This document shows positions 12,841-60,662 of a stretch of 64,000 bases of DNA, in pieces (positions within the stretch are counted from its first letter, which is position 1; each line of letters begins with the position of its first letter). The notes beneath the pieces were generated by a model that was given only the letters and a program-made list of their open reading frames with translations, was not told the origin of the DNA and did no database searches. Source of the stretch: Arthrobacter globiformis (GTDB lineage: Bacteria; Actinomycetota; Actinomycetes; Actinomycetales; Micrococcaceae); assembly GCF_003261175.1 (NCBI RefSeq), contig NZ_QLNP01000095.1:1-64000 (forward strand). Direction: 5' to 3'. The position numbers were made by a program, and so were the translations under genes.

Positions 12841-13626
<786 letters not shown>

Positions 13627-14467: not shown

Positions 14468-15277
14468 GTGACTTTCCACTATCTCGAGTCGGCCGCGGAT
14501 CCCCGCGTTGCCGACTACACCCAGCTGACGGATGTCCACCTGCGGAAACTCCGCGAACCCGCCGAGGGCATGTACATCGCCGAATCCTCCCGTGTCCTGC
14601 GGCGCGCCCTCTCCGCGGGGCACCGGCCGCGGTCCTTCTTCCTCGCGGAGAAATGGCTTCCGGACCTCGCGGACATCTTCGAGCAGTACCCCGATGTTCC
14701 GGCCTATATCGGCAGCGCCGCCCTTCTGGAGGAAATTACCGGGTTCCACCTGCACCGCGGAGCCATGGCGGCCATGCACCGTCCGGCGCCGGTCCCGCTG
14801 GCGGAACTGTTGGCCGGCGCCCGGCGCGTGGCGGTGCTTGAGGACATCGTGGACCACACCAACGTGGGGGCCATCTTCCGGTCGGCGGCGGCGCTGGACG
14901 TCGACGCCGTCCTGGTCTCGCCCCGCTGCGGCGACCCGCTGTACCGCCGCAGCGTCCGCGTCAGCATGGGCACCGTCTTCCAGGTGCCCTGGGCCAGGCT
15001 GGACAGCTGGCCGCAGGACCTGACGCTCCTCAAGGAACAGGGCTTCACGGTGGCGGCGATGGAGCTCACCGACGACGCCGTCGACCTGGACGAGCTGGCT
15101 GCCAGAAACCCGGACCGGCTCGCCCTGGTGCTGGGTACGGAAGGTGCCGGCATGAGCGCGGACACGCTCGCCGCCGTCGACCTCGCCGTCAAGATCCCGA
15201 TGCGCGCTGGCGTTGACTCACTCAACGTTGCGGCGGCGTCCGCCGTCGCATTCTGGGAGCTGCGGCCGCGGGCCTAA
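14468..15277 (+). CDS. SpoU/TrmH-family RNA 2'-O-methyltransferase
   Basis: The 269-residue protein has an N-terminal L30e-like substrate-binding domain and a C-terminal SPOUT knot. The three knot motifs are visible: DHTNVGAIFRSAAALDVDAVL, LALVLGTEGAGMS and IPMRAGVDSLNVAAASAVAFWE. It should methylate a ribose in rRNA or tRNA with S-adenosylmethionine; the target base cannot be told. The GTG start lies 37 bases after the TauE/SafE gene. Confidence 0.9.
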   Translation: MTFHYLESAADPRVADYTQLTDVHLRKLREPAEGMYIAESSRVLRRALSAGHRPRSFFLAEKWLPDLADIFEQYPDVPAYIGSAALLEEITGFHLHRGAMAAMHRPAPVPLAELLAGARRVAVLEDIVDHTNVGAIFRSAAALDVDAVLVSPRCGDPLYRRSVRVSMGTVFQVPWARLDSWPQDLTLLKEQGFTVAAMELTDDAVDLDELAARNPDRLALVLGTEGAGMSADTLAAVDLAVKIPMRAGVDSLNVAAASAVAFWELRPRA

Positions 15278-15442
15278 ACTCGCCGGAACGGCGGTTCGTG
15301 AGCACCTTCGGCATCGGCTATGATTGATAGCTGGTTCCCCTGTGTTTTTCGTTGGCCTTGTGGCTGACCGGATCGCGGCGGAAGCCATCCCATTCATACC
15401 TGGCAGCTGGCAAAATCCAGTTGCGTGAACAAAGGCCCCATT

Positions 15443-15700
15443 ATGAAGTCGAACACTCACCCGAAGTACGAAGCTGTTGTTTTCAACGACCTGGCCTCCG
15501 GCACGAAGTTCCTGACCCGCTCCACCGTGTCTTCCTCGAAGACCATCGAGTGGGAAGACGGCAACACCTACCCGGTCATCGACGTCGAAATCTCCTCCGA
15601 GTCCCACCCGTTCTACACGGGCAAGCAGCGCATCATGGACTCCGCTGGCCGCGTCGAGCGCTTCAACGCTCGCTTCAAGGGCTTCGGCGGCAAGAAGTAA
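15443..15700 (+). CDS. rpmE2: 50S ribosomal protein L31, type B
   Basis: The 85-residue protein matches type B L31: it begins [10 protein letters not shown], contains [10 protein letters not shown] and ends in a basic FKGFGGKK tail. It lacks the CxxC zinc ligands of the type A form. Such C-minus paralogs often replace the zinc form when zinc is scarce under Zur control, though I see no clear Zur box upstream. The ATG at 15443 was chosen over an in-frame GTG at 15425 because of the conserved N-terminus. A strong terminator follows. Confidence 0.95.
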
Positions 15701-15725
15701 TTCACTTCTCCCCAAGGTTCTTTGG

Positions 15726-15756
15726 AAAGCCCGCACCGGCAACGGTGCGGGCTTTT
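15726..15756 (+). terminator. Rho-independent terminator of rpmE2
   Basis: A perfect 13-bp stem (AAAGCCCGCACCG with its complement) closes a GCAA tetraloop and runs into a T run, 25 bases after the rpmE2 stop. Confidence 0.93.
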
Positions 15757-15782
15757 CGCGTTTGTGGGGCAGGATGGAAGGC

Positions 15783-16877
15783 ATGAGTGCCATGCCAAGA
15801 CCTGCAGCGGGAGAGTCGGCCCCCGGGCTGCACGGTGAGTACAAGGTCCCAGGCGGCAAGCTCGTAGTAGTGGACCTCGACGTCGTGGACGGCGCCTTGG
15901 CGGATGTCTCCTTGAGCGGCGACTTCTTCCTCGAACCGGATGAGGCCCTGCTGGCTATCAACGCCGCCGTGGGGGGACTGCCGGAAAGTTCGACGGCGGC
16001 TGACATCGCTTCCGCCGTGGAGGCCTCCCTCCCGGAGGACGCCGTGCTGTTCGGGTTCTCCGCCGACGCTGTCGCCATCGCCGTTCGCAGGGCGTTGGCC
16101 AAGGCTACCGCGTGGACGGACCACCACTGGAACATCATCGCGCCCAGCGTGCTGCCCACGCACCTGAACGTGGCGCTGGACGAGGTGCTGACCGAGGAGG
16201 TTGGCGCCGGGCGCCGCAACCCCACCATACGTTTCTGGGACTGGGAGGAACCGTCGGTGGTGATCGGCAGCTTCCAGTCCTACCGCAATGAGGTGCATCC
16301 CGACGGCGTGGCCCGGCACGGCATCACGGTGGTCCGCCGCATCAGCGGCGGGGGAGCGATGTTCATGGAGGCGGGCAACTGCATCACCTACTCGCTCTAC
16401 CTGCCGCAGACGCTCGTGGACGGTATCAGCTTCGCCGACTCCTACGCGTTCCTCGACGGCTGGGTCATGGCCGCGCTGAAAAAGCTCGGCATTGACGCCT
16501 TCTACGTTCCGCTCAACGACATAGCCACCGGCCAGGGCAAGATCGGCGGGGCGGCGCAGAAGCGGCTCGCCAACGGCGGCATGCTCCACCACGTGACCAT
16601 GAGTTACGACATTGACGCCGACAAGATGGTGGACGTGCTCCGGATCGGCAAGGAAAAGCTCTCGGACAAGGGAACCACCAGCGCCAAGAAACGCGTGGAC
16701 CCGCTGCGCCGCCAGACCGGCCTGGCCCGGGCGGAGATCGTGGCGGCCATGATGGAGGTGTTCGCCGAGCGCTACGGGGCCACGCCGTCGGAGATCACGG
16801 AGCAGGAGCTGGAAACCGCCCGTGGGCGTGTCGCGTCAAAGTTTGGCACGGACGCCTGGCTGCACCGGGTCCCCTGA
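15783..16877 (+). CDS. Lipoate-protein ligase family protein with N-terminal accessory domain
   Basis: The 364-residue protein carries at its N-terminus (about residues 17-105) a domain resembling the LplA C-terminal/LplB accessory domain, with KVPGGKLVVVDL and SGDFFLEP. The biotin/lipoate ligase core follows from about residue 115. It has RRISGGGA (185-192) for lipoyl-AMP binding and the catalytic Lys253 in GKIGGAAQKR. In E. coli LplA the order is the reverse. It should attach lipoate or octanoate to E2/GcvH proteins. The ATG at 15783 has GGAAGG upstream. Confidence 0.85.
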   Translation: MSAMPRPAAGESAPGLHGEYKVPGGKLVVVDLDVVDGALADVSLSGDFFLEPDEALLAINAAVGGLPESSTAADIASAVEASLPEDAVLFGFSADAVAIAVRRALAKATAWTDHHWNIIAPSVLPTHLNVALDEVLTEEVGAGRRNPTIRFWDWEEPSVVIGSFQSYRNEVHPDGVARHGITVVRRISGGGAMFMEAGNCITYSLYLPQTLVDGISFADSYAFLDGWVMAALKKLGIDAFYVPLNDIATGQGKIGGAAQKRLANGGMLHHVTMSYDIDADKMVDVLRIGKEKLSDKGTTSAKKRVDPLRRQTGLARAEIVAAMMEVFAERYGATPSEITEQELETARGRVASKFGTDAWLHRVP

Positions 16878-16937
16878 CAAGCCTAGACACGCCCACCCGC
16901 TGCTCCGTAAGTGCCCTTTCAGGGGTTATTAGGGCAT

Positions 16938-19586
16938 CTAGGGAGCACTCGATGGGGTTTTCACCGACAGTGCCTGCGCGGATAGCGCACGGTGCAGGTG
17001 GCTCCGCTGCTCGATGATGATCCGGCGCAGGGCACGCGGGGCGTCCTGGTGCTCTGAAAGCCAGCGGTCGGTGCGTGCCACCACCGGATGGTCCTCCGGT
17101 GCCCCGGCCGAATCCAGGTCCTGGACGGCCGGGTAGAGACCGCGGACGATCCGGCTTGCGATTTCGATGCTCCGCTCCGCCCACACCGTTTCCAGGCACT
17201 CGAAGTAGGGCTCCACAAACGGGTCCAGGAGTTCCTCGGAGGCGGTGTTGAACCCGGCAATGGTAGCGCTCAGCAGCTGGTTGGAGAGCGCCGTCCCGCG
17301 GACCGCTGCCTCCCAGGCCGCGGCCTTGACCGCCGCCTCAGGCCGGGCTGCCAGCGCCGTAGCGTGCCCTGCCCGCCCGGACGCCGTCGTGTCCCTGGCC
17401 AGCTCGGCGCCGAGCTCCTGCTCCGTGGCCAGGCCACGGGCCGCCAGGGCGTGCCACAGGCTCCAGCGGAGCTCCGCGTCCACGGACAGTCCAGGCACCC
17501 GCTCACTGCCGTCCAGCAGCCCGAGCAGGAGTCCGGCCTGGCTGCCGTCTGTGCGGCTGACCGTGGCAAGTGTCCTGGCCCAGGCAAGCTGCCGGTCGGA
17601 ACCCGGCTCCGCCGCGCGCAGCTCCCGTGCCGCGCCCTCGGCAAAGGACTTGCGCAGTGCGTCACGGTCAGTGGCCGGAACGTACTGTTCAAGGGCCATT
17701 GTGGCGTTGCCCAGGATGTTCAGCAGGACGCCGATCCCGGACTCGGCGGCAGCGAAGCGGAGGACGGCGTCCACGTACTGCGAGGCAGGTGTAATGGCGT
17801 CCCGGGCCGAATTCCACAGCGCGGACCAGCACAGGGCACGGGCCATGGGGTCGCTGATCCGGTCCAGGGAGGAACGGACGGCGGCCTCCGAGACCGGATC
17901 CAGCCGCACCTTGGCATAGCTCAGGTCCTCGTCATTGATCAGGAGCAGGGCCGGGCGGCGCTTCCCGGACAGGGCGCTGACTTGCTCGGCCGCGCCAGCC
18001 AGGTCGGTCTCCACGGAGTCAGTCCGGACCAGCCTGCCGGCGGCATCGAAGTTGTAGAGCCCGATGCGAAGCCGGTGAGGGCGCGGCTCCTGCCGGCCGG
18101 TGACGGGATCGGGCGCGTCCTGCAGCAGCGTGATCCGCTCCAGGGTCTCAGTTCCGTCCGGCGCTACACTCGTCTCCAGCTCGGCGCTCAGCGTGGAAAT
18201 GCCCGAGGTCTGAAGCCACTGCCGGGCCCACGTGGTGAGGTCCCGGCCGGAGGAAACGGCCAGGGCACCGAGCAGGTCGGCCAGCGTGGTGTTCCCGTAC
18301 TCGTGGTCCCTGAAGTACTTCCGGGACCCCTCAACGAAGGCGTCGAAGCCGACGTAGGCCACCAGCTGCTTCAGGACGGAGGCGCCCTTCGCGTACGTGA
18401 TGCCGTCGAAGTTCTGCTTGGCCGCCTCGAGGTCCGGGATGTCGGCCACGATCGGGTGCGTGGTGGGCAGCTGGTCCTGGACGTAGGCCCAGGCCTTGCG
18501 GTTGTTCGCGAAGTTGACCCAGGCGGTGTCCCAGTCCGTGGCGCGGTCCACGCCGAGGGTGCCCATGTAGTCCGCGAATGATTCCTTGAGCCAGAGGTCG
18601 TCCCACCACTGCATGGTCACGAGGTCGCCGAACCACATGTGGGCCATCTCGTGCAGCAGGGTGTTGGCGCGGCCCTGGTACTGGGAATCGGCGGCCCGTG
18701 AGGTGAACACGTAGTTTTCCGTGAAGGTGACCAGCCCGGGATTTTCCATGGCGCCGAGGTTGTATTCGGGGACGAAGGCCTGGTCGTACTTGCCCCACGG
18801 GTAGGGGTAGTCAAACAGCTGGTTGAAGAAGTCCAAGCCGTTCTTGGTGAGCCTGAACAGCTCGGCGGCGTCGAACGAGGGCGCCAAGGAGGCCCGGCAG
18901 TACAGTGCCAGCGGCACGTCAAGGCGGGCCCCGCCGTCGTCCGTCCTGCTCCAGTGGTCCTCGGCTTTGAAGTAAGGGCCGGCCACCACCGAGGTGATGT
19001 AGGTGGACATGGGCAGGGTGGGCACGAAGTCCCAGCGGGCCGCGGCGGCATCGTCCGCCAGGGGCAGGCGCGCCGCCTCGGCGCCGTTGGAGGCCACCTC
19101 CCAGCCCACCGGGGCGGTGACGGAGAAGGTGAACCGGGCCTTGAGGTCGGGCTGTTCGAAGTTCGCGAAGACCCGGCGGGCATCGGCCGGTTCGTACTGG
19201 GTGTAGAGGTAGCACTGGCCGTCGGCGGGGTCAAAGAACCGGTGCATGCCCTCGCCCGAGCTGCTGTACAGCGCGGTTCCGGTGACAGTCACCCTGTTCT
19301 CGGCCTGCAGGTTGTCCAGCCGGATCCGTGCCCCGTCCACCACGTCGGGGACCGGCAGCTCGACGCCGTTGAGGACCACGCTGTGCACGTCGCCGGCGAT
19401 GAAGTCCAGGAAGGTGGATGCTCCCGGCTTCTCTGCCGAGAAGGCGATGGTGCTGCGGCTGGTGTAGCCGGCCGTGTCCGGATCCGGTGCTCTGCGGACG
19501 TCGAGCGCGACGTCGTAGCTGTGGGTGGTGATCAGGGCGGACCGCTCTGCCGCTTCGTTGCGCTGGAGGTTCTGGTTCGACACCAA
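16938..19586 (-). CDS. pepN: Aminopeptidase N (M1 family)
   Basis: The 882-residue zinc aminopeptidase has the substrate-binding GAMEN motif (278-282) and the zinc site HEMAH (312-316) with the third ligand Glu335, exactly 18 residues after the second His. The length and the ERAP1-like C-terminal helical domain match actinobacterial PepN. It is cytoplasmic and trims N-terminal residues from peptides. The start is TTG at 19586 or GTG at 19583; no strong ribosome site is visible. A YeiH-like gene lies directly upstream on the same strand. Confidence 0.93.
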   Translation of the reverse strand: MVSNQNLQRNEAAERSALITTHSYDVALDVRRAPDPDTAGYTSRSTIAFSAEKPGASTFLDFIAGDVHSVVLNGVELPVPDVVDGARIRLDNLQAENRVTVTGTALYSSSGEGMHRFFDPADGQCYLYTQYEPADARRVFANFEQPDLKARFTFSVTAPVGWEVASNGAEAARLPLADDAAAARWDFVPTLPMSTYITSVVAGPYFKAEDHWSRTDDGGARLDVPLALYCRASLAPSFDAAELFRLTKNGLDFFNQLFDYPYPWGKYDQAFVPEYNLGAMENPGLVTFTENYVFTSRAADSQYQGRANTLLHEMAHMWFGDLVTMQWWDDLWLKESFADYMGTLGVDRATDWDTAWVNFANNRKAWAYVQDQLPTTHPIVADIPDLEAAKQNFDGITYAKGASVLKQLVAYVGFDAFVEGSRKYFRDHEYGNTTLADLLGALAVSSGRDLTTWARQWLQTSGISTLSAELETSVAPDGTETLERITLLQDAPDPVTGRQEPRPHRLRIGLYNFDAAGRLVRTDSVETDLAGAAEQVSALSGKRRPALLLINDEDLSYAKVRLDPVSEAAVRSSLDRISDPMARALCWSALWNSARDAITPASQYVDAVLRFAAAESGIGVLLNILGNATMALEQYVPATDRDALRKSFAEGAARELRAAEPGSDRQLAWARTLATVSRTDGSQAGLLLGLLDGSERVPGLSVDAELRWSLWHALAARGLATEQELGAELARDTTASGRAGHATALAARPEAAVKAAAWEAAVRGTALSNQLLSATIAGFNTASEELLDPFVEPYFECLETVWAERSIEIASRIVRGLYPAVQDLDSAGAPEDHPVVARTDRWLSEHQDAPRALRRIIIEQRSHLHRALSAQALSVKTPSSAP

Positions 19587-46063: not shown

Positions 46064-49000
46064 TTATTGAACTGCGAGTTTCTGCAGGGCAAGCTCCTGT
46101 TCTGCCGCCTTCCGGGATTTCCTCGACTGGGCGAAACGAAGGTAGAGCGACGGCACGATAAACAGGTTGAGCAGCGTGGAGGTCAGGAGTCCGCCGAGGA
46201 TGACCACGGCCATCGGGTATTCAATCTCGTGACCGGGCACATCCCCCATGACGACCAGTGGCACCAGGGCAAGTCCGGTGGCAAGGGTGGTCATGAGGAT
46301 CGGGGAGAGCCGTTCACCGGCGCCCCGCAGCACGAGCGAGCCGCCGAACGGAACCCCCTCGATCCTTTCCAGGTGTTGGCAGTGGCTGATGAGCAGGATG
46401 CCGTTCCGGGCCGCGATTCCCATGACCGTCAGGAACCCCACGAGCGAACCCAGCGACAGTACCCCGCCGGTGAAGTACGCGGCCAGGACCGCTCCTACGA
46501 GCGCGATGGGCAGCGTCAGGAGGGCCAGAACGGCCAGCCGCCAGCTGCGGAAGGACGCCTGCAGGAGCACGAGGATCAGAATCAGCGCCGCAACAGCGAA
46601 AATCGTGAGTCGCTCAGTGGCTGCCTGCCGCTCAGTGTATTCGCCCAATAGCTGGACGCTGTAGCCGGCGGGCAGGTTGAGGGACTCCAGGCGTTCCTGC
46701 AGCTGTGTGACCACGCGGCCGAGGTCCGCTCCGGCGTCGATGAAGGATCCCACCTCAACCCTGCGGGAACCGTTCGTGCGGTCGATGAGGTTCGGGGTGG
46801 GCTGCACGCTGACGTCGGCGACGTCGGCGAGGCGCACACGCTTCCCGCTTGGCGTATCGATGGGCAGGTCCTGGATGGTGGTGACGCTTGCCCGGGTTTC
46901 CGGTGTACTCCAGACCTGGACGTCGTAGGCCCTTCCGTCCCGGAAGACGTCGCCCACCTCTTCCCCGGCCACGAGTGTCGCAGCAGCGCGCCGCACGTCC
47001 CCGGGCTTGAGGCCGTACTTCTCCGCCTCGGCCAGGTTCACTTTAACAGCGATCTGCGGGACGTCGACCTCAAGGGAGATGTGGGGATCGTCGGTCCCGT
47101 TTATCTCGCTGAGGATTTGTTTGACCCTCTGGGCCTGCTCGCGCAGCACGTTAAGGTCGTCGCCGTAAACCCGGACGAGGATGGGTTCGCTGGCACCCGT
47201 TAGGACTTCTTCGATCCGTTCCTTCAGATACGTCTGCACATCGCGGTGCAGGCCCGGGTATCCGTCCACGACTTCCTGGACGGCTGCGACTGTCTGCTCG
47301 TAGTTGGCGTGGCGGTCGATGCTGATCCAGTGTTCACCGGCATTGACGCCAACTATCTCGTCCGCCTGGAAGGCCTGGCCAATATGCGTTCCACAGTTAA
47401 GCACGCCGGGCACCTTGAGGAACGCCGCGCAGCCCCGCTGGGCGATGCGGTATTCCTCCGCCGCCGACGTGCCGGGTTCCGACACCCAGTGCATCAGGAA
47501 GTCGCGTTCCTTGAACGTGGGAAACAAGGACTGCCCAAGCAGCGGGGCGATCGCCAGACCAACCAGCGCCAGAGCCCCGAACCCGGCATAGCCGTATCGC
47601 GGCCGGTTCATGATGCGGGAAAGGACGGTATGGTACCCGCGCTTGAGCACCCGGACCAGCGGCGGGTCGCGTTGCTCCAGCTTTGCCCTGGCCAACAGGA
47701 TCAGGGCAAGTGCCGGCGTCACGGTCAGGGCCACGAGCATCGATGCCAGGACGGCCAGCGTGTAGGACACGGCAAGGGGCCTGAAAAACACTCCCGTCAG
47801 CCCGTCCAGGAAGAAAATGGGAAGGGCAGCCACCACAATGATCAAGGTGGCGTAGACGATGGGGCTCCGCATTTCCAGGGAAGCCTTCAGCACCACAGAG
47901 GCCGTCGATTCGCTCCCGCCGCGGCTGCGGTGCTGCCGCAAGCGGCGCATGATGTTTTCGACGTCGATGATTGCGTCGTCGACGACGACCCCCACCGCAA
48001 TGACCAGCCCGGCCAGGATCATGGTGTTGACCGATCCACCGGTTAAGTACAGCACCATGACGGCGGTGAGGAGGGAGAGCGGAATGGCGATCAGGCTGAT
48101 GAGTGCTGTCCGCCACTGGAACAGGAACGCGCTGAGGATCATGACCACCAGCAGGCAGCCCAAGAGGAGGGCAAGGCTAAGGTTGGAAACGGCCTCCTCG
48201 ATGAAGCTCGCCGGACGGAAGATGGTGGTGTCGAAGGTGATGCCGCTCATGCCCGGCTGAAGTTCGTGAAGGGCTTCCTCAACGCCCTTGGTCACGTCCA
48301 GCGTGTTGCCCCAGGGGAGCTTCTCAACAATAAGCATCAGTCCATGGCCGTTGTTGATGACTGCATCGCCGATCAGCGGCTGATGGTCCTCGACCACCCG
48401 CGCCACGTCGCCCAGATGCAGTGCGGTGCCGTGGTCTTCGCGGATGGTCACACGGGCCAGGTCCGCAGGGCTGGTGATGGGCTGGACGTGGCGGATGCTC
48501 ATCTGCTGGTTCGGGCTGCCGACGAAGCCGCCGGTGCCGATAAATTTTCCAGGCGAGTACTGGAGCAGGCCTGCGTCCACAGCCCCGGCCGTTACTTCCA
48601 TGACCTGGTTGAGTGAGACATTCTTGGCTTTGAGCTGCTCCGGCTTGACCTGGACCTGCAGCATCTGGAGCCTCTCGCCCCAGATGGCCACGTTGGCCAC
48701 GCCGGGGACCCGCAGAAGTCGGGCCCGGATGGTCCAATACGAAAGCATGGACATCTCGATCATGGACCGGCTGGACGATGTCATGCCGATTTTCATGACC
48801 CGGCTGGTCGAGGACAGCGGCTGCAGCATCACCGGGGGAGCGGCCCACGTGGGCAGGGCCGCCGTCACGGCGGCCATCCGCTCGGATACCTGCTGCCGCG
48901 CGTTGAGCAGGTCTGTGCCCTGCTTGAAGATCAGGATGATCGAGGACAGCTGGGGCACGGATTTTGACCTCAGCTCATCCAGGCCCGGCATTCCGGAGAG

Positions 49001-49213
49001 GGACGCCTCGATCGGCACAGAGACAAGTTCCTCCACCTCCTGGGCCGTGAGACCAAGGCACGCAGTCTGCACCTCGACCCGCGGTGGCGCGAACTCCGGA
49101 AAAACATCCAACGATGCCCTACTGAGCTGGACGGATCCCAGCAGCATCACCACGCAGGCGAGGGCAACTACGATCGTCCTGAACCTGAGGCTGATTCCTA
49201 CTATCCACCGCAT
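46064..49213 (-). CDS. RND permease, heavy-metal-efflux (CusA/CzcA) type, with intact proton-relay motif
   Basis: The 1049-residue protein has the RND layout: helix 1, a large extracytoplasmic loop, helices 2-6, a second loop and helices 7-12. The opening [20 protein letters not shown] and the helix-4 motif [19 protein letters not shown] (paired Asp at 412-413, Glu419) match the HME/CzcA group. Export of a metal ion or another cation is the family role; the substrate is not known. The ATG begins one base after the stub-adaptor stop. It is the last gene of the unit. Confidence 0.9.
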
Positions 49214-49214
49214 G

Positions 49215-49670
49215 TCAGCTCGCCACATCCAGTTCAGCGCCGAACAGCTCTGCGGCTCCCAGGGTCACCACAGTCGTGCCCGGGGCCGGACCGTCGCTCA
49301 GCGTGGCCTGTTCGCCGTCGATCCGCTCCACCGTGATGGACTGGCGGACGTAGACCCGCGGGCCGGCAATTGTGTAGACCCAGGTTTTTCCTTCGCTGTC
49401 GTAGAGGACCGCCAGGTAGGGGACGGTGAGTTTCCCGCTCTTGGCGTCCAGTTTCGTGGCCGACGTCTGGAGGCCGAGGTTCCCGGCGGCGTGTTCGTTC
49501 AGTGTGATGCGCTTCAGGTCGGTCCCGGGCACCTCCTCAAGGCTCGCGGCAGCGTCGCCGGCGGCCGCAGTCTCCGGCGAGTGCTGGCTGCAGGCCGGCA
49601 ATGCCGGTGTGAGGAGACCCAGAACGATAAGAACCATCAGGCCGCGCATCCGCGGCGAGGTCGTTGTCAT
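49215..49670 (-). CDS. Lipoprotein with only the membrane-proximal part of an RND adaptor
   Basis: The 151-residue protein has a signal peptide ending in the lipobox LPAC (Cys27). What follows resembles the C-terminal membrane-proximal domain of CzcB/CusB adaptors: VPYLAVLYDSEGKTWVYT, VYVRQSITVERIDG and PGTTVVTLGAAELFGAE. The lipoyl, hairpin and barrel domains of a full adaptor (usually 350-400 residues) are missing. In a one-membrane cell, with no outer-membrane channel to reach, a short adaptor is plausible. It sits between two RND permease genes, with one and about 15 bases on either side. Confidence 0.82.
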   Translation of the reverse strand: MTTTSPRMRGLMVLIVLGLLTPALPACSQHSPETAAAGDAAASLEEVPGTDLKRITLNEHAAGNLGLQTSATKLDAKSGKLTVPYLAVLYDSEGKTWVYTIAGPRVYVRQSITVERIDGEQATLSDGPAPGTTVVTLGAAELFGAELDVAS

Positions 49671-49685
49671 GATGCATCCCGGCTT

Positions 49686-52600
49686 TCAGGCGCCCGTCCG
49701 GGCTTCGGTGACTTCGGCGTGTGTCGTTGCTGTTCGTGTCCCTGCCTGGCTGCGTTCGAAGCGGAGCAGGATTGCGGGAAGCACGAACAGGACGAAAAGG
49801 GTGGTCGTCAGCAGGCCGCCCCAGATGATGATCGCGATGGGCTGGAGGACCTCAGTGCCTGTGACACCGCCCAGAAGCACGAGCGGAATCAGGGCGACGG
49901 CCGTGGTCACCACGGAGGCGAGGGTCGGCTTGAGCCTGTCGCGTGCGGCGCGGATAACCACCGATGGCCCCGTTGCTTGGCTATGCCTGGCGCGGAGGTT
50001 CCGGACCTCGCCGGCGAGCAGCAGGCAGCCGCGGACTGCGATGCCCAGGACGGCTGAGAACGCGACAAACGCCGTCAGGTAGTTGGCCCCGCCGTCCGCC
50101 AGGGCTGCAAAAACTCCACCCGACAGGCACGCGATCAGGCCAAGGAAAACGGCCGCTGCAAGCCGCCACCCGCCCAGCGCTGTCTGCAGCAGCACCAGGA
50201 TGCCGAAGGCAGCTACCGCTGCCAGCAGCCACAGCCACTGGAAGGAGGCTTGCTGCTGCGCGTACTGGGTCAGGATCTCCGCGTGGTAGGCCACCGGGAA
50301 CTGGATCTGCTGCAGGCCTCTTTCGATGTCCTGCTGCACATCAGTCAGCCCGCGCCCTTGGATGTCCGCCCTTACATCCACGCGCCGGGAAGTGTCGTCA
50401 TGCAGGATGACCGCATCGTTTGGAACGACACTGACCTCAGCGACGTCGCCAAGGCGCACATGCCCGCCTTTGGGGGTGTCGATCAGCAGCTCACTGACGC
50501 TGGTGAGGCTGTTCCGGGTTGCAGGTGTTCCCTTGACCACCACGGAGAAGACCTTCTGCTGCTCGTAGACGTTGCCCACCTCGATGCCCTGCAGCAGCGC
50601 GGCCGCTGCACGCCGGACTTCGCCGGGTACGACGCCCGCCTTCTGTGCCTTCGCCAAGTCCACCTTGACCTGGATGGTCGGCTGTTCGACGGGGGCTTCA
50701 ACGCGGGGATTCACCACACCGGCCGTGTGCGCGAGAACCTGCCGGACTTCCTCCGCCTTTGCCCGGAGGGTGGCCATGTCGACGCCGTAGACCCGAACGC
50801 CAAATCCGGAATCGGCAGCTTCCCGGATTTGGTCGATTTTCTGTTGCGGGTAGGTGGAGACCGTTGCGCTCAAACCCGGGTACCCTGCCACGACCCTTTG
50901 TACGTCCTCAAGGGTGCTGGAGTACGAGGCATCCTTCGCCACTCCCACCCACAGCTCCCCGGAACTGATGTCTCCCACGTGGTCGGACGTAATGGCGCGC
51001 CCAACCTCGGTGGCCACGTTGGAGACGCCCTGCACCGCCCGCAGTTCGCGGGCCGCGGTATCGGTGATCCGGACCATCTCCTGGTCGGAGGTGCCAGGCG
51101 CGGCACGCCACTGGACCACCAGCGTGTTGTCCGCCAGCACCGGCACCACAGGGTGGTTGGGGACCAGCTGCGGCGCCAACGCCAGGGCGGCGAGCGCCAT
51201 GACCGCCGCGGCGGCAAAGACCAGCGCGGGCCTGCCCGGCCGGCGGGACAGCGTCCGCCCATACCGGATCCGCAGGCGCTGCATGGCTTGGCGCTCGCGG
51301 CCCGGAGCCGTTGGGGCCGGCGGCAGCAAGAACGCCAGGGCCGCTGTCACTGTGAGCGCCACGATCATGGCGACCGCCAGCGCCAGCAGATATGCAATGA
51401 CCAGGGGCCCGAACATGGCGCCGTTTTCGCCGGGGACAAAGAGCATGGGGAGCACGCTCAGTGCCATGATCAGCAGCGCGTAGAACAGGGAGGTGCGGAC
51501 AGGCCGTAACGCACCCGCGAGCAGGGCGATCCTCGAATCCCCGGGGCCGCTTGCCTTGGATGCCCGGTAGGCCCTTGCGGCGCAGTTCAGGTCTTCCGCT
51601 ACATCCCCGATGATGACGCTCAGGGCGAGGATCATGCCGGCGAAGACCATGGTGTTCAGCCCGGCCCCGCGCAGGGTCAGCAGCAGGGCCGCAGCAATGA
51701 GGGAGAGCGGAACGGTGACCAGGGTGATCAGTGCGCTGCGCCAGGACCGGAAGACCACTCCGAACGCCGCCGCGACCAGCAGCAGCGTGACAAGCAGCGC
51801 GACACCAAGGGTGCCCATTTCCTGCTCGACGAACGACTCCTGCCGGTACACGGTGGTGTCGACGGTTACGCCGGGCAGCCCGGCCTGGAGCTCGCGCATA
51901 GTCTCGTCGAGCCCCTTCGTGACGTCCGCGGTGTTTGTCTCCGGGAATTTTTCAATCACCAGCAACAGCTCAGCGTCCTGGCCGGGCTGCGCATCACCGA
52001 TCAACGGCTGATGATCAGTCTGGACCTGCGCGACATCCCCCAGGAGCAATTTGTCACTGCTGCCCTGGACGCTGACTTTTCCGAGGTCCTCGGGAGTGGT
52101 GATGGGAAGGACATGCTGGACGCCCAGCCGCTGATGTCCCGTCTCCAGGAAGCCGCCCGTGCCCGGCGTTGAGGCCTCAAGGTAGCTCAGCGGGGACACC
52201 CAGACGGAGTTGCCCGTGGTCCTGATGACCTGGTCCAGTGTCACGCCCTTGGCTTCGAGCTGCTTGGGGTCCACGAGTACCTGCAACTGCTGGTCGCGCT
52301 GGCCCCAGATGGAAATGTTCGCTACTCCGGGAACGGCCAAAAGCGCGGGCTTCATGGTCCACCGTGCCAGCACGGACATGTCGATGGGGGACATGTCCGT
52401 GGACGTGAGCCTGACCATCATCACCCGGCTGGTGGAGGACAGTGGTTGCATGAGCACGGGTGCTGCCGACACGTTGGGCAGCGCCCTGGCCTGGGTCAGG
52501 CGCTCAGCGACGAGCTGGCGTGCCCGGAACATGTCCGTACCCGGCTGGAAGACCAGCTGGATTGAGGACAGGCCGGGAAGTGACTTGGAACGGATAGCCT

Positions 52601-52841
52601 CCACCCATGCCACGCCGTTGAGCAGGTCGGCCTCCATGGGGGACGTGATGAGCTGCTCGACTTCCGCGGCAGAGAGCCCCAGGGCCTCGGTCTGTATTTC
52701 GACCTGCGGCGGGGCGAACTCGGGGAAAGCGTCAACCGGCATGGTGGGCAGAGCGGTGAAGCCATACCCGAGGACGCCGGCCGCCACGACCAGGACAAGG
52801 ATCCGGAACTGCAGAACCCAGCCGAGAATGGCGCCCATCAT
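49686..52841 (-). CDS. RND permease, second HME-like subunit with degenerate proton-relay motif
   Basis: The 1051-residue protein shares the RND plan and many segments with its neighbour: [41 protein letters not shown] and VDTTVYRQESF. In helix 4, however, the neighbour's [12 protein letters not shown] is replaced by VIIGDVAEDLNC. One Asp (413) is kept, but the first Asp, the Glu and the Asn are lost. It may therefore be a partner that does not itself relay protons in a heteromeric pump. It is the first gene of the unit. ATG at 52841, with a second ATG next to it. Confidence 0.9.
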   Translation of the reverse strand: MMGAILGWVLQFRILVLVVAAGVLGYGFTALPTMPVDAFPEFAPPQVEIQTEALGLSAAEVEQLITSPMEADLLNGVAWVEAIRSKSLPGLSSIQLVFQPGTDMFRARQLVAERLTQARALPNVSAAPVLMQPLSSTSRVMMVRLTSTDMSPIDMSVLARWTMKPALLAVPGVANISIWGQRDQQLQVLVDPKQLEAKGVTLDQVIRTTGNSVWVSPLSYLEASTPGTGGFLETGHQRLGVQHVLPITTPEDLGKVSVQGSSDKLLLGDVAQVQTDHQPLIGDAQPGQDAELLLVIEKFPETNTADVTKGLDETMRELQAGLPGVTVDTTVYRQESFVEQEMGTLGVALLVTLLLVAAAFGVVFRSWRSALITLVTVPLSLIAAALLLTLRGAGLNTMVFAGMILALSVIIGDVAEDLNCAARAYRASKASGPGDSRIALLAGALRPVRTSLFYALLIMALSVLPMLFVPGENGAMFGPLVIAYLLALAVAMIVALTVTAALAFLLPPAPTAPGRERQAMQRLRIRYGRTLSRRPGRPALVFAAAAVMALAALALAPQLVPNHPVVPVLADNTLVVQWRAAPGTSDQEMVRITDTAARELRAVQGVSNVATEVGRAITSDHVGDISSGELWVGVAKDASYSSTLEDVQRVVAGYPGLSATVSTYPQQKIDQIREAADSGFGVRVYGVDMATLRAKAEEVRQVLAHTAGVVNPRVEAPVEQPTIQVKVDLAKAQKAGVVPGEVRRAAAALLQGIEVGNVYEQQKVFSVVVKGTPATRNSLTSVSELLIDTPKGGHVRLGDVAEVSVVPNDAVILHDDTSRRVDVRADIQGRGLTDVQQDIERGLQQIQFPVAYHAEILTQYAQQQASFQWLWLLAAVAAFGILVLLQTALGGWRLAAAVFLGLIACLSGGVFAALADGGANYLTAFVAFSAVLGIAVRGCLLLAGEVRNLRARHSQATGPSVVIRAARDRLKPTLASVVTTAVALIPLVLLGGVTGTEVLQPIAIIIWGGLLTTTLFVLFVLPAILLRFERSQAGTRTATTHAEVTEARTGA

Positions 52842-54599: not shown

Positions 54600-57500
54600 A
54601 TGCCGCTTCGTTTATTGACGCGTGCAAAACAACGCGCGCTGGCGTCGGCAACGACGTTTTCGGCAATTGGACTGCTGGTGGTGGTGGCCGTCATCCATCC
54701 GGGATTCCGGACCACGCAGATCGACCTGAATGACGGCGGCGTGTGGGTGACCAATTCCGACATGAACCTCGTGGGCCACCTGAACTTCCAGTCGAAAACC
54801 CTGGACGGCGGCCTCATGGCAGCCAGCGCCGACTTCGACGTCCTCCAACACAGCAGCAGCGTGCTCGTTTCCGACCGCGGCAACGCCTCCCTGGGCAGGG
54901 TCAAGGTCTCCGAGGTCACCCTTGAACCGCCCCAGCAGCTTCCGGGATCGGCGGTCCCGGCTTTCGGGGAAAAAGCGGTGGCGCTGGCTGATCCCAACTC
55001 GGGCCGTCTCTGGGTGACGCAGAGCAGCATGCTCGGCTCTGTCGACTTCGATTCACAGGAACCCGTCCTGAGCGACGCCAAAGGCGTCGTCGCGACGGTA
55101 GGAGCCGACGACGTCGTTTACGCTGCGGACCCTGCGCGCGGGGAGGTGACTTCCCTTCGTGTGAATGCGACCGGCGGAGTGGATTCCCGCAACACCGTCC
55201 AGTACCAGTCGATCCGCAATAAGGAAAACGTCCAGGTCGCCGCGGTCGGGGATCAGCCCGTCATATTCGACGCCGACGCCGGGACCCTTCACCTTCCATC
55301 CGGCCGACTGGCGCATTTGCCGGATGCGGCGGACGCCAAGCTGCAGCAAAGCGGTGCCGCCTCGGACTATGTCGCCGTCTCCACAAAGAAGGGCCTGGTC
55401 AAGCAACCCCTGGACGGTTCGGCGGCGACGGTTGTGGAGCTCGGAACATCGGGGACACCTGCCACTCCGGTCCATGTCAACGGCTGCGTCTACGCGGCGT
55501 GGTCCGGGGCAGGCAAATACCTGCGGGATTGTGCGAACGCCGCTGATAGCCGGAGGTCTGACATTCCCGGGGCAGGCGCCCGCTCCAACCTGGTCTTTCG
55601 CGTCAACCGGGACGTCGTGGTCCTCAACGACGTCACGTCCGGCAACGTCTGGCTGGTCACCGAGAACATGAGGCTCGTTGCCAACTGGGACGAGATCATT
55701 CCTCCGCCGAGCAAGACCGAGGCCCAGGACGAACCCGCCGCGGAAGACAACCTGGTGGACACTCTCCCGGACCGCACCAAAGAGAACCGGCCGCCCTCCG
55801 CCACAGACGACCAGTTCGGAGTGCGGCCCGGCCGGACAACGCTCCTGCCAGTCCTGGACAACGACTCGGACCCGGACGGAGACGTCCTCACCGTCCAGCT
55901 CCAGGGCGACAACCCCGGCGCCGGCAGCGTGCAGGCCGTCTACAACGGAACCGGCCTGCAAGTGAAGGTGCCGGCCAATGCGACTGGAACGTCCCAGTTC
56001 CGGTACCTGGCCAGTGACGGCCGCGGCGGCACCGCCGGAGCCACGGTCACCCTGACCGTAAAGGACCCAGCCAGCAACGGGGCGCCGGCACAGAAACGCG
56101 TGCCCACGATCATCCTGGAGCAGGGCAAAAGCATCTCCCAGAACATCCTCACCGACTGGACCGATCCCGACGGCGACGACCTGCTGCTCCTGGGAGCACG
56201 CACTGCCAGTGAAGGCGACCAGGTGCGCACCCGGGCGGACGGTCTCCTGACCTTCAAGGATGTGGGATCAACGCTGGGCAAAAAGGACGTCGTGATCACT
56301 GTCTCCGACGGCCGGGACCAGGTCGAGGGCACGGTGGTGGTGGATGTCCGCGCCAAAGGCGACCTTCCGCCGAAGGCCAACGCGGACCACGTTTCGGGTA
56401 CCGCCGGGCAGGACATTCTGGTTTTTCCGCTGAAGAACGACAGCGACCCCACCGGCGAAGGACTGCGGCTGACGCGCGTGGCCGGCGCCAAGGAGCAGGC
56501 CATCACCCCCGACTACCAGGCGGGGACCTTCACCTTCCGTGCAGCCAACGCCGGAACGTATTACGTGACGTATCTGGTAACCAATGGACCTGACAGCTCT
56601 GAGGGACTCGTGCGGATCGATGTCAGTGCCGCCGGGGCGGGGCGGGGTGAACCGGTCGCCGTCGCCGATACAGCGCTGCTGCCGGTAGGCGGCGAAGTGC
56701 TGCTGGACGCGCTCGCCAACGACTCGGACCCGGCCGGGGGCGTTCTTGTCATCCAGTCCGTCGGGCTTCCACGGAATACGGCAGTAGCCGTCGCCGTCGT
56801 CAATCACCAGATCCTGCGCATTACCGACGTCCGTGGCCTGACTGCACCCACCAGCCTGACGTACACAGTGTCCAACGGCGTGGCCAGCTCAACGGGGCAG
56901 GTCACCATCCTGCCCATTCCGGCGCCCGCCAAACTGCTCCCGCCTGTCGCGGCCCCGGATGAAATCACAGTGCGGGCCAACGACGTCGCCACCATCACAG
57001 TGCTTGCCAATGACACCCACCCCAACGGCGCCAAGCTGAAGCTCAAGCCGGTCCTCGTGCAGGGAATCAGCTCCGCCCAAGGCCTCCTCGCAGTGTCGGG
57101 GGACGTGCTTCGCTTCAAGGCAGGCAGGGCAGGAGGAACGGTGCACGCGATCTACGCCGTTGCCGGACCGGACGGGCAGGAAGACTCGGCGCAGGTGACC
57201 ATTCACATTCGCGGCGAGGGCACGAACTCAAGGCCGCTTCCTCACAATGTCACCGGTCGGGTCGTGGCCGGCAACACGACGAGGATCGCCATTCCCCTGG
57301 ACGGCATTGATCCCGACGGCGACTCTGTCACCTTGGTGGGGCTGGAGCAGGCACCGCGCAAGGGAACAGCTGTGGTGGGTGCCCACTACGTCGAATACAC
57401 GGCGCCGGCGAACGCTGCCGGACAGGACACCTTCACCTATGTGGTCGAGGACCGGTTCGGGGCACGGTCCACCGCCCGCGTGGCCGTGGGCATCGCACCC

Positions 57501-60500
57501 GCGCCCGGATCCAACCAGCGTCCGAGGGCCGTTGAGGACAGCATCACCGTTCTCCCAGGGCGGCACGTGGCAGTGGACGTGCTGGCCAATGATTCCGACC
57601 CCGACGGCGACAATGTCACGCTTACAGCCAACCGGCTGGAAGCTGCCCCGGAGTTGAAGGCCGAAGTCATCGACGGACGGGTGCAGCTCACCGCCCCGTC
57701 GCCTTCCGAAGCCTCCGCCACAGCGATCGTCCGGTACGAGATCAGCGACGGCCGCGGCGGCACCGCCGTCGGAACCCTCAAAGTCCAGGCCCGCAAGGAC
57801 GCCGCCACGTTGGCGCCCGTTGCCCGGGACGACCGGGTGGCGTTCGCGGAGACACTGGGCAAGGCCGTCGTCGAAGTCCCCGTCCTGAAGAACGACGAAG
57901 ACCCGGACGGTGTGGCCGCGGAACTGAAGATAACCTTCCCGGAAGCGGCACCCACTGCCAGCATCTCGGCGCCCGGCAAGGTTTCGGTGCGGCTTGAGAG
58001 CCAGCCGCAGATCATCGCGTACACCGTCACCGACGTGGACAAGCTCAGCTCAACGGCGTTCATCGTGGTACCCGGCCTGCAGGGCCAGGCGCCCGCTCTA
58101 CGGAGCACCGCACCGTTGGACGTGGTCAGCGGCCAACAGCTGACCATGAACCTGCGGGACCTGGTGGTGGTCCGTGCCGGCAAGAGTCCCCGCATCACCC
58201 AGGACACCAAGGTCCAGGCGGTCGCCTCTAATGGAGCGCCGCTCGTGAAGGACGCGACCACCATCGTGTTCACTTCCGCCGACGACTACGCAGGCCCGGC
58301 AGCAGTTTCCCTCGAGGTCACCGACGGCGTGAGCGTTGACGACCCTGACGGGCGGACGGCGGTCCTGAGCATTGGCATCAGGGTCCTGCCCGACCCGGGG
58401 CGCAACCATCCTCCGACTTTCCCGTCCAGCACCGTGGACGCTGCGCCGGGCGAGGAAGCCACGCTTGACCTGCGCCAGGTGGCCACCGACGTCGACAAGG
58501 CAGACAAGGACAAGCTCACCTTTGCGCTGCAAGGGACACCGCCCGCCGGCATCAAGGCCTCCCTGGACGGCAGCCTTTTCAAAGCCACCGTGGGCAGCGC
58601 CGCCAAGGGGAGCACGCTGACCGTGCGCGTCACCGTCTCGGACGGGCGCAGCGCAGCGGTTGCCGGTGCCGTGGACGTCCGCGTGGTCGCGTCTAAGCGT
58701 CCGCTTACCGCAGCGAACGACGACGTCATCGCCAGCGCCCGGGCCGGGCAATCACAGCCGGTACCGGTGCTGGACAACGACATCAACCCGTTCCCGGAAT
58801 CACCGCTGAAAATCCTCAGCGCCGCCGTCGAAACCGGAAGGGGCACAGCCGCAGTGGAGGGCGGCGTCGTCGTCGTGACGCCCGCCGAGGAGTTCGTGGG
58901 CACAATGGTGGTCCGCTACCGGGTCCAGGACAAAACGCAGGACGCGGAACGCGAAGTTGACGGCCGCGTCCGGCTCACCGTCAAGGACAAGCCGGATGCT
59001 CCATCCACGCCGACTGTCGGGGAGGTGCGTGACCGTACCGTCGTCCTCAACTGGTCGCCTCCAGCCAACAACGGAGCGGCGATCACCGGCTACAAGGTCA
59101 GCGGCAGCGGAGGGTTCTCGCAGCAGTGCCCTGCCACCACGTGCACGCTTACGGGCCTGACCAACAACGTGGAGTACACCTTCACTGTGGTGGCCACGAA
59201 CGAGCTGGGGGACTCGGCGCCGTCTCCCGCTTCGGCACCTGCCCGTCCCGACGCGAAGCCGGATACCCCGGCAGCGCCGGCGCTGGTCTTTGGCGACAGA
59301 TCCCTCACCGTAAACTGGGTACCTCCCAAGAGCAACGGCTCACCGGTGGAGAGCTACAACCTGGAGATCTCACCCGCACCTCCGGGAGGAAACGTCCGGG
59401 TGAGCAAGGTCACGGGAACGTCCTACCGGTGGACGGGCCTCCAGAACGGGACGCCGTACCAGGTCAGAGTCCAGGCTTCCAACAAGGCGCCGGATCCATC
59501 AGAATGGAGCGCCTATTCAGCCAGCGTCATCCCGGCCGGCGCGCCGGGTGCCCCCGGTAAGCCAAGCACCACCCGGAGCACCTCCGGCGGGACGGAATCG
59601 ATCATGGTGGTGTCGTGGACGCCCGCAGCGGACAACGGCGCCTCCATCGACACCTACACCGTCAACGCCATGCAGGGTGGGTCCACGGTAGCGAGCAGCA
59701 CCGTGTCCGGCAGTCAGCTGAGCGTGCCTGTCACCGTCGGCAACTCCGCCACCGATTACACCTTCACGGTTGTCGCCAAAAATAAGGCCGGTACGTCGGC
59801 CGCCAGTGCGCCGTCGGACCCCCGCCGCGCTTTCGGCGCGCCAGGTGCCGTCCCCGGCGTCCGGGCCGACCCATTGGACAACGCGGTGCAGCTTTCCTTT
59901 GGTGCAGCCGCTGGCAACGGTGCGACACCGGGCTACCAGTACCAGGTCAACGGAGGCAGCTTCATGGCAGTGCCGTCCGACAAGGTCATCCGGTCCGGTG
60001 TGCCCAACAACGGCAACTACACCATCGGGGTGCGCGCCGTGAACAGCGCGGACGGCGCCACATACGAAGGGCCGGTCACCAACTCCAACCCGGTGGCGCC
60101 GTACGGCAAACCGCACGCGGCGAGCATCAACCCCGTTACTGTGACCACGACGGTGAGGTTCGACGTCGGTGCCGTGGTCAACAACGGACGCCGGGTCGTG
60201 GCACTGGAGTACCAGTCATCGGACGGGAAGTCAGGCACGCTGGGTGCCGGGGGAGGATCCGTCACCACCGGTAACGGATACGACCAATCCATCTCCATCA
60301 CCGTGACAGTCGTGGATGACCTCGGCCAGCGCACGGCGGTCTCGGCGACCGGAAGGACGGCGCCGGCGAAGTACCTCACGGTGGACAACGGCACCGCGAG
60401 TCCCGGTACCTGCGAGTGGCCCACCAACGGCACCTCTTCTCCGGACACAGCAGCCAACTGTGCCGCCGGCGGCGGAACCTTCGTGGCGCAGGGCACGCGG

Positions 60501-60662
60501 GTGCAGGTCCAGTGCGTGACCACCGGTGCCGCGTACACCATCTACGACGGCGCCACGGGCCGACCCACCGGGTCCACGAGCAACGTTTGGTACAAGGTGA
60601 TCAACAACCTCTGGATCCGTCCCACCGACGGGCCCGTGGATTCGGGGGTCCCGGCCTGCTGA
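54600..60662 (+). CDS. Giant membrane-anchored repeat protein (cadherin/Tandem-95-like and FN3 domains)
   Basis: The 2020-residue protein has one N-terminal membrane helix (about residues 16-34). A beta-propeller-like region with VWVTN/LWVTQ repeats (about 40-385) follows. Then come about ten cadherin/Tandem-95-type repeats (about 395-1460), each marked by LxNDxDPDGD or a variant. Next are about five fibronectin type III-like domains (1460-1920) and a C-terminal domain with four Cys. It is likely extracytoplasmic and used for adhesion or cell-wall contact. The ND-x-DPDGD motifs suggest calcium binding. GGGGGAC precedes the ATG. In other actinobacteria such genes often precede moxR-DUF58-transglutaminase genes, absent here. 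Confidence 0.9.
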   Translation: MPLRLLTRAKQRALASATTFSAIGLLVVVAVIHPGFRTTQIDLNDGGVWVTNSDMNLVGHLNFQSKTLDGGLMAASADFDVLQHSSSVLVSDRGNASLGRVKVSEVTLEPPQQLPGSAVPAFGEKAVALADPNSGRLWVTQSSMLGSVDFDSQEPVLSDAKGVVATVGADDVVYAADPARGEVTSLRVNATGGVDSRNTVQYQSIRNKENVQVAAVGDQPVIFDADAGTLHLPSGRLAHLPDAADAKLQQSGAASDYVAVSTKKGLVKQPLDGSAATVVELGTSGTPATPVHVNGCVYAAWSGAGKYLRDCANAADSRRSDIPGAGARSNLVFRVNRDVVVLNDVTSGNVWLVTENMRLVANWDEIIPPPSKTEAQDEPAAEDNLVDTLPDRTKENRPPSATDDQFGVRPGRTTLLPVLDNDSDPDGDVLTVQLQGDNPGAGSVQAVYNGTGLQVKVPANATGTSQFRYLASDGRGGTAGATVTLTVKDPASNGAPAQKRVPTIILEQGKSISQNILTDWTDPDGDDLLLLGARTASEGDQVRTRADGLLTFKDVGSTLGKKDVVITVSDGRDQVEGTVVVDVRAKGDLPPKANADHVSGTAGQDILVFPLKNDSDPTGEGLRLTRVAGAKEQAITPDYQAGTFTFRAANAGTYYVTYLVTNGPDSSEGLVRIDVSAAGAGRGEPVAVADTALLPVGGEVLLDALANDSDPAGGVLVIQSVGLPRNTAVAVAVVNHQILRITDVRGLTAPTSLTYTVSNGVASSTGQVTILPIPAPAKLLPPVAAPDEITVRANDVATITVLANDTHPNGAKLKLKPVLVQGISSAQGLLAVSGDVLRFKAGRAGGTVHAIYAVAGPDGQEDSAQVTIHIRGEGTNSRPLPHNVTGRVVAGNTTRIAIPLDGIDPDGDSVTLVGLEQAPRKGTAVVGAHYVEYTAPANAAGQDTFTYVVEDRFGARSTARVAVGIAPAPGSNQRPRAVEDSITVLPGRHVAVDVLANDSDPDGDNVTLTANRLEAAPELKAEVIDGRVQLTAPSPSEASATAIVRYEISDGRGGTAVGTLKVQARKDAATLAPVARDDRVAFAETLGKAVVEVPVLKNDEDPDGVAAELKITFPEAAPTASISAPGKVSVRLESQPQIIAYTVTDVDKLSSTAFIVVPGLQGQAPALRSTAPLDVVSGQQLTMNLRDLVVVRAGKSPRITQDTKVQAVASNGAPLVKDATTIVFTSADDYAGPAAVSLEVTDGVSVDDPDGRTAVLSIGIRVLPDPGRNHPPTFPSSTVDAAPGEEATLDLRQVATDVDKADKDKLTFALQGTPPAGIKASLDGSLFKATVGSAAKGSTLTVRVTVSDGRSAAVAGAVDVRVVASKRPLTAANDDVIASARAGQSQPVPVLDNDINPFPESPLKILSAAVETGRGTAAVEGGVVVVTPAEEFVGTMVVRYRVQDKTQDAEREVDGRVRLTVKDKPDAPSTPTVGEVRDRTVVLNWSPPANNGAAITGYKVSGSGGFSQQCPATTCTLTGLTNNVEYTFTVVATNELGDSAPSPASAPARPDAKPDTPAAPALVFGDRSLTVNWVPPKSNGSPVESYNLEISPAPPGGNVRVSKVTGTSYRWTGLQNGTPYQVRVQASNKAPDPSEWSAYSASVIPAGAPGAPGKPSTTRSTSGGTESIMVVSWTPAADNGASIDTYTVNAMQGGSTVASSTVSGSQLSVPVTVGNSATDYTFTVVAKNKAGTSAASAPSDPRRAFGAPGAVPGVRADPLDNAVQLSFGAAAGNGATPGYQYQVNGGSFMAVPSDKVIRSGVPNNGNYTIGVRAVNSADGATYEGPVTNSNPVAPYGKPHAASINPVTVTTTVRFDVGAVVNNGRRVVALEYQSSDGKSGTLGAGGGSVTTGNGYDQSISITVTVVDDLGQRTAVSATGRTAPAKYLTVDNGTASPGTCEWPTNGTSSPDTAANCAAGGGTFVAQGTRVQVQCVTTGAAYTIYDGATGRPTGSTSNVWYKVINNLWIRPTDGPVDSGVPAC

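Follow-up and report, generated by a model that had tools for sequence, protein, structure and literature searches.

Why would a bacterium encode two different full-length permeases of the RND (resistance-nodulation-division) superfamily on either side of a fragment of an adaptor? The question is raised by a stretch of 64,000 nucleotides from Arthrobacter globiformis (contig NZ_QLNP01000095.1, positions 1 to 64,000; hereafter the window), whose minus strand carries permease A as the first gene (49686..52841, 1051 residues), followed by lipoprotein L (49215..49670, 151 residues) and permease B (46064..49213, 1049 residues). The recurrence of such an unequal permease pair together with an adaptor remnant suggests a stable two-part pump, one part working and the other without the working residues, and we put at roughly 55% the probability that A, L and B together form a hetero-RND exporter adapted to life with only one membrane, with B the working permease and A a relay-eroded subunit.

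Layout of the A-L-B unit

A and B are 41.3% identical, and both match PF00873 (ACR_tran) over its full length (481.6 and 707.3 bits, respectively, against a cut-off of 28), which places them in the RND permease superfamily; both fall short of the 701.45-bit cut-off of TIGR00914, the CusA/CzcA heavy metal efflux model (B 568.6, A 389.4 bits). A sequence-only reading of this locus had proposed two permeases of about 1050 residues and a 151-residue lipoprotein that keeps only the membrane-proximal adaptor domain, and the open reading frames (ORFs), the full-length PF00873 matches and a partial TIGR01730 match of L bear this out. The 15 bases between A and L and the single base between L and B agree with the gaps it gave, provided that B starts at the ATG at 49213; an alternative in-frame ATG upstream, at 49228, would yield 1054 residues and a 14-base overlap with L. 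The choice of start also shifts the numbering, the paired Asp of B being residues 412-413 from the short start and 417-418 in the ORF listing, which uses the long start. A scan for an operon promoter and terminator returned signals at chance level only.

An intact relay in B and an eroded relay in A

In helix 4, B has the intact relay D412 D413 E419 N420 (short-start numbering; hereafter D-D-E-N), and the aligned residues of A are G412, D413, N419 and C420, so that the first Asp, the Glu and the Asn are lost, just as had been read from the window. A comparison of helix 4 across orthologues, set beforehand as a check, extended this asymmetry: one permease carries D-D-E-N in all 41 loci (the window, 15 additional loci and 25 pairs from named genomes; partly non-independent, in that the window and L054, L037 and L055, and three Bradyrhizobium loci are near relatives), and the second lacks at least one of the four residues in 40 of them, the exception being L041. 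In L100 and L106 this second permease runs off the contig. The first Asp of A, aligned to D405 of CusA, is Gly in the Arthrobacter-Sinomonas-Cryobacterium group, except for a Thr in L146, and is lost in 11/32 A proteins; the second Asp is kept in 28/32, and the Glu (Glu424 in the long-start numbering of B) is lost in 24/32. The sequence-only reading had allowed that the eroded permease might keep a relay elsewhere; no replacement was seen in helices 4 and 10 of A, although the helix-10 Arg persists, a point to which we return.

The porter site sets the two permeases apart as well. At two positions of the three-Met metal site of CusA (M573, M623 and M672), B has His580 (M573 position, 33 of 34 sequences) and Glu674 (M672 position, 34 of 34), versus 7/32 A proteins in either case; these counts omit two outgroup RND rows and include as B two contig-start rows of the B clade (L069, L074). 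The M623 position is Ala630 in B by reading of the CusA alignment, with Glu632 nearby (His580, Glu674 and Glu632 are in long-start numbering). A His and a Glu at CusA positions make a cation a plausible substrate and argue against a Met-type Cu/Ag site.

For all its erosion, A evolves under purifying selection. The ratio of nonsynonymous to synonymous substitution rates (dN/dS) against the orthologue in genome G008 is 0.10 for A and 0.07 for B, and in three other comparisons A gives 0.12, 0.115 and 0.166 and the corresponding B pairs 0.087, 0.083 and 0.164. A is the more diverged of the two (mean p-distance 0.535 vs 0.400).

Occurrence across genomes

The window genome contains a second A-L-B unit on another contig, one unrelated single RND gene, and a sixth PF00873 match that is part of another ORF; this second unit and the recurrence of the layout across phyla argue that the pairing is not due to chance. 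A search for the three-gene order in other Actinobacteria, which the sequence-only reading had called for, recovered it repeatedly: among 396 genomes sampled from the phylum, 17 had matches to A above 350 bits and 14 held complete pairs, with the locus cut by contig ends in G084, G203 and G386. With B as query, 11 of 295 genomes from the family passed the threshold, ten with A beside B and one with a distant 31% match, and six of 394 from the class did so, all six with A beside B (the window genome and G008 recur in the three samples). The unit is thus rare and patchy in the sampled groups, yet paired wherever the locus is intact.

Loci from named genomes, also found with B as query, are the best 80 of 572 relatives and not a census. 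At least two RND permeases of this kind are present in 26 of these 80; one candidate, L078, was rejected as two ordinary pumps with D-D-E-N in both permeases, leaving 25 A/B pairs. In seven of the 80 (L061, L069, L074, L080, L099, L113, L119) the contig breaks off next to B; the tail of another permease is still visible beside B in L061 and L080, and the other five are uninformative. No B-lineage locus that is intact on both sides lacks A, and no isolated A was found among loci not cut by contig ends, so that the orthologue with a single permease that would have spoken against the pairing did not appear.

The adaptor is a stub in 21 of the 25 named pairs, in one case fused to A. Hosts of stub pairs include Arthrobacter, Sinomonas, Cryobacterium, Nocardioides, Terrabacter, Catellatospora, Catenulispora, Streptomyces and three Bradyrhizobium, as well as metagenome-assembled genomes (MAGs) of Thermomicrobiales, Chloroflexi, Trueperaceae, Streptosporangiaceae and others; the four pairs with a longer adaptor come from Anaeromyxobacter, Variovorax and two Nitrospirota MAGs. 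A is retained beside B in Actinomycetota, Nitrospirota, Chloroflexota, Deinococcota, Myxococcota and Pseudomonadota. Thirteen further loci are all A-L-B units (L151 apparently shares its contig with L064). Overall, A-L-B is the prevailing arrangement; L100 and L106 have L-A-B, L042 has L-A-L-B, L072 has an A-L fusion, and the four longer-adaptor pairs run B-X-L-A. The closest named relative among the best 80 is Arthrobacter sp. ES3-54, with a B that is 85% identical. The unit may have reached Bradyrhizobium from another phylum.

Origin of the permease pair

In a FastTree phylogeny of 87 permeases, 31 A rows and the positional A of L041 form one clade (support 99) beside B, with single-permease pumps outside. 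A quick IQ-TREE search on 41 rows, from an alignment with the helix-4 and helix-10 columns left out, returned an A clade (100), a B clade (92) and a joint A+B clade (100). A is likewise one clade in a smaller tree that includes E. coli reference sequences; there MdtB and MdtC pair with each other and join AcrB (support 99 each), a topology that rejects the A/B pair as sister of MdtBC. The A/B family itself falls on the CusA side of the RND tree, with Synechocystis CopA (support 99, the long CusA branch being flagged as unsure). Given one A clade and one A+B clade, with MdtB and MdtC elsewhere, the simplest reading is a single old duplication, separate from that of MdtBC, which would have been inherited by both the longer-adaptor and the stub lineages.

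The likeness to MdtABC/MuxABC (HAE-1 clade B) therefore lies in the plan, two adjacent permease genes from one old duplication, and not in descent. MdtB and MdtC are 50.3% identical, make up a separate pair near AcrB in the tree and both keep an intact helix-4 relay; their operon includes a full-length adaptor gene, mdtA, and MdtABC works with TolC. An active MdtB2C heterotrimer is described in two reports (PMC12802153, PMC4338810), the second of which divides proton coupling and substrate binding between the subunits. A survey of 920 Gram-negative genomes counted 203 tandem permease pairs, all in HAE-1 clade B, with Gram-positives excluded (PMC10872679). As a second, independent tandem case beyond that clade, A/B would change the picture of hetero-RND origins.

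Among HME5-type pumps (Synechocystis CopA and NrsA, Cupriavidus NieA), Synechocystis CopA is 34.1% identical to B and has the helix-4 motif VVDDSIVDMEN, but it stands beside a single full-length adaptor gene, without another permease; the substrates reported for HME5 are Ni and Cu (PMC7060636). The closest single relatives in the plasmid collection, from Methylomonas, Hymenobacter and Sphingobium, are 49-55% identical to B and share its D-D-E-N, but are annotated tripartite systems with one permease, a full-length adaptor and a TolC-family gene. Two papers report no HME pump in the Streptomyces coelicolor or Frankia genomes studied (PMC3924187, PMC4531530). In the literature covered (titles and abstract beginnings, with subscription journals mostly outside) we found no description of two paired RND permeases of the HME side that come with an adaptor limited to its membrane-proximal domain, in keeping with the sequence-only reading, to which no description of this compact layout was known.

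A lipoprotein reduced to the membrane-proximal domain

L has a signal peptide, a lipobox Cys (Cys27) and an isolated membrane-proximal adaptor domain at about residues 41-146. It has no match in Pfam; its sole sizeable NCBIfam match is to TIGR01730, the RND adaptor model, and covers the C-terminal part of that profile (positions 245-313 of 322, E 3.3e-5), alongside a marginal match to the DcrB lipoprotein model (E 0.047). At 23 bits L misses the whole-adaptor cut-off of 94.9, a weak test taken alone, as the full Methylomonas adaptor is also under it (73.9). The predicted fold of L is that of a membrane-proximal domain, by the single structural match of the VIA second look. In alignments to full adaptors the barrel, lipoyl and hairpin domains are absent, and the N strand joins the C-terminal segment directly. 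The dN/dS of L against its G008 orthologue is 0.18.

The sequence-only reading had named a full-length adaptor encoded with orthologues as a point that would count against it. None was found at stub loci within the stretches fetched, but in the four pairs from outer-membrane bacteria the adaptor ORF is longer (294-407 residues), by alignment still without a hairpin and with a barrel assigned tentatively from that alignment. Single-permease relatives outside the A+B clade have full adaptors. Other reduced or Gram-positive adaptors differ from L: BesA lacks only the hairpin, and YknX, which likewise comes from a cell without an outer membrane and has a membrane-proximal domain (PMC4446572), retains a conspicuous hairpin and works with a transporter of the ABC type (PMC4446572, PMC4338810). 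In Streptomyces L072, A and L are fused through a linker without any ATG, GTG or TTG codon, which favours contact between A and L, though in a single case. L042 has a second stub-like adaptor upstream of A (12943-13554), giving its L-A-L-B order.

No outer-membrane route

We take the window host to be a single-membrane bacterium. Its genome has no match to PF02321 (outer-membrane efflux protein), a model for which the control was positive in 7/14 known genomes, and no match to an RND adaptor model besides L, so the unit has no sign of the outer-membrane channel of a tripartite pump; the earlier claim of neither channel nor full adaptor stands. A TolC profile built from three sequences gave no hits in the 25 paired named loci, as opposed to 35 of 54 single-permease loci (several cut by contig ends). 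In the outer-membrane bacteria of L070 and L073, an outer-membrane barrel of the PF13372 alginate-export type follows the pair (14888-16534 and 15500-17083, respectively), with no TolC-profile hit; a related ORF occurs in L071.

Neighbouring genes

The flanks of the unit in the window encode a LysR regulator, an aminotransferase and a weak polyketide-cyclase match (Pfam); these are not metal genes, and we rejected them as a clue to substrate. Farther off (54600-60662), a 2020-residue ORF has many repeated segments, by eye Ig-like and fibronectin-III repeats. Elsewhere, up to 20 of the 45 loci inspected encode, close to the unit and often directly after B, a member of a conserved family of secreted proteins or lipoproteins of about 300 residues (for example L048:12984-13904, L045:5066-5971 and L058:10173-11084). 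Three members had no Pfam or NCBIfam match at E 0.05 and no PDB match below E 0.6, and the family has three matches elsewhere in the window genome (L140-L142). L070, L071, L073 and L097 share, between B and the adaptor, a conserved protein of about 220-250 residues that is probably exported (no Pfam match in two members scanned). In Bradyrhizobium (L065:771-2621, L066, L067) a conserved 616-residue protein is encoded on the opposite strand, upstream of A; the single member scanned had no Pfam match. The same three loci (L065:12683-17087) and Nocardioides L104 (129-3072) have a related secreted protein and an ABC-type ATPase beside the unit, perhaps a MacAB-like exporter, and L065 also a neighbouring protein with a peptidoglycan-binding domain. 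Two-component systems neighbour the unit at some loci.

How the unit might work

Within the single-exporter reading, B would be the working permease, with a proton relay in helices 4 and 10 and a substrate site whose polar residues lie at or beside the metal-binding positions of CusA. A would be its sister from an old duplication, full-length and mostly relay-eroded; most probably it enters mixed trimers with B, where it would serve as a structural or gating protomer, transmitting conformational changes without pumping protons of its own. L would be the lipid-anchored, free-standing counterpart of the permease-touching part of a classical adaptor, likely clamping on the porter domains and stimulating or holding the pump. 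The substrate, a putative cation taken from the outer face of the membrane, would probably be released directly outside. We infer the mixed trimer, the silence of A, the clamp role of L, the direction of transport and the substrate.

Several observations weigh against this reading. Contact between A and B is presumed, and the correlation of their trees (r 0.78, with 0/2000 permutations as high) is expected from co-inheritance alone. The first helix-4 Asp is still present in 21/32 A proteins, the A of L041 has the whole of D-D-E-N, and the helix-10 Arg is kept in 31/32; A is thus not stripped of everything, and some A may still move protons. Two contig-start rows labelled as single permeases fell inside the B clade of the 87-permease tree, and in the smaller reference tree B did not resolve. 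The lipobox Cys is found in 19 of 22 stub rows and is absent in L059, L105 and L123, and also L050, and the A-L fusion is known from one genome only. As regards substrate, B lacks the three-Met site of HME4 (CusA-type Cu/Ag), and a cation, though plausible, is a guess.

It is unlikely, in our judgement, that A and B instead form two homotrimeric pumps, A3 and B3, sharing an operon and a lipoprotein, with A shifted to another substrate or energising mode. Such a shift would suit an A that is full-length, under purifying selection, more diverged than B, and mostly in possession of the helix-10 Arg and second Asp; but the losses of the first Asp and of Glu424 are hard to square with an independent proton pump, and separate pumps sit poorly with uncut loci that never show B without A or A in isolation. 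The sequence-only reading had drawn a parallel to MdtBC, in which subunits share labour, and here protons would pass via B and substrate would bind via A. The tandem permeases from one duplication invite the comparison, as does MdtB2C, in which relay mutation is reportedly more harmful in MdtB and substrate binding is assigned to MdtC (PMC4338810). The porter-site residues disfavour it, however: those at the M573 and M672 positions are kept in B and mostly lost in A, so that A is eroded at both relay and site, whereas MdtB and MdtC both keep D-D and E-N. We consider such a division quite unlikely; what survives of the earlier interpretation is the conserved two-permease unit with a stub adaptor and no channel. 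That A is a decaying duplicate retained by chance beside B we regard as highly improbable: its eroded motif and greater divergence would fit, but decay is disfavoured by the dN/dS values (0.10 to 0.17 for the four A comparisons, 0.07 to 0.16 for their B counterparts), by frames open at full length and by retention beside B in six phyla.

Implications

L appears to be a membrane-proximal module isolated by nature, with no other docking partner. Tentatively, and at somewhat short of even odds, the family may represent an independently evolved obligate hetero-RND pump with a silent protomer, which spread into single-membrane bacteria and whose adaptor lost one domain after another until the membrane-proximal module alone was left; in that case this module, and not the bridge to the outer membrane, would be the part that a pump cannot do without. 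In the usual view of RND pumps, three equal protomers take turns; were one of them permanently relay-eroded, the number of active sites that a trimer needs could be tested directly.
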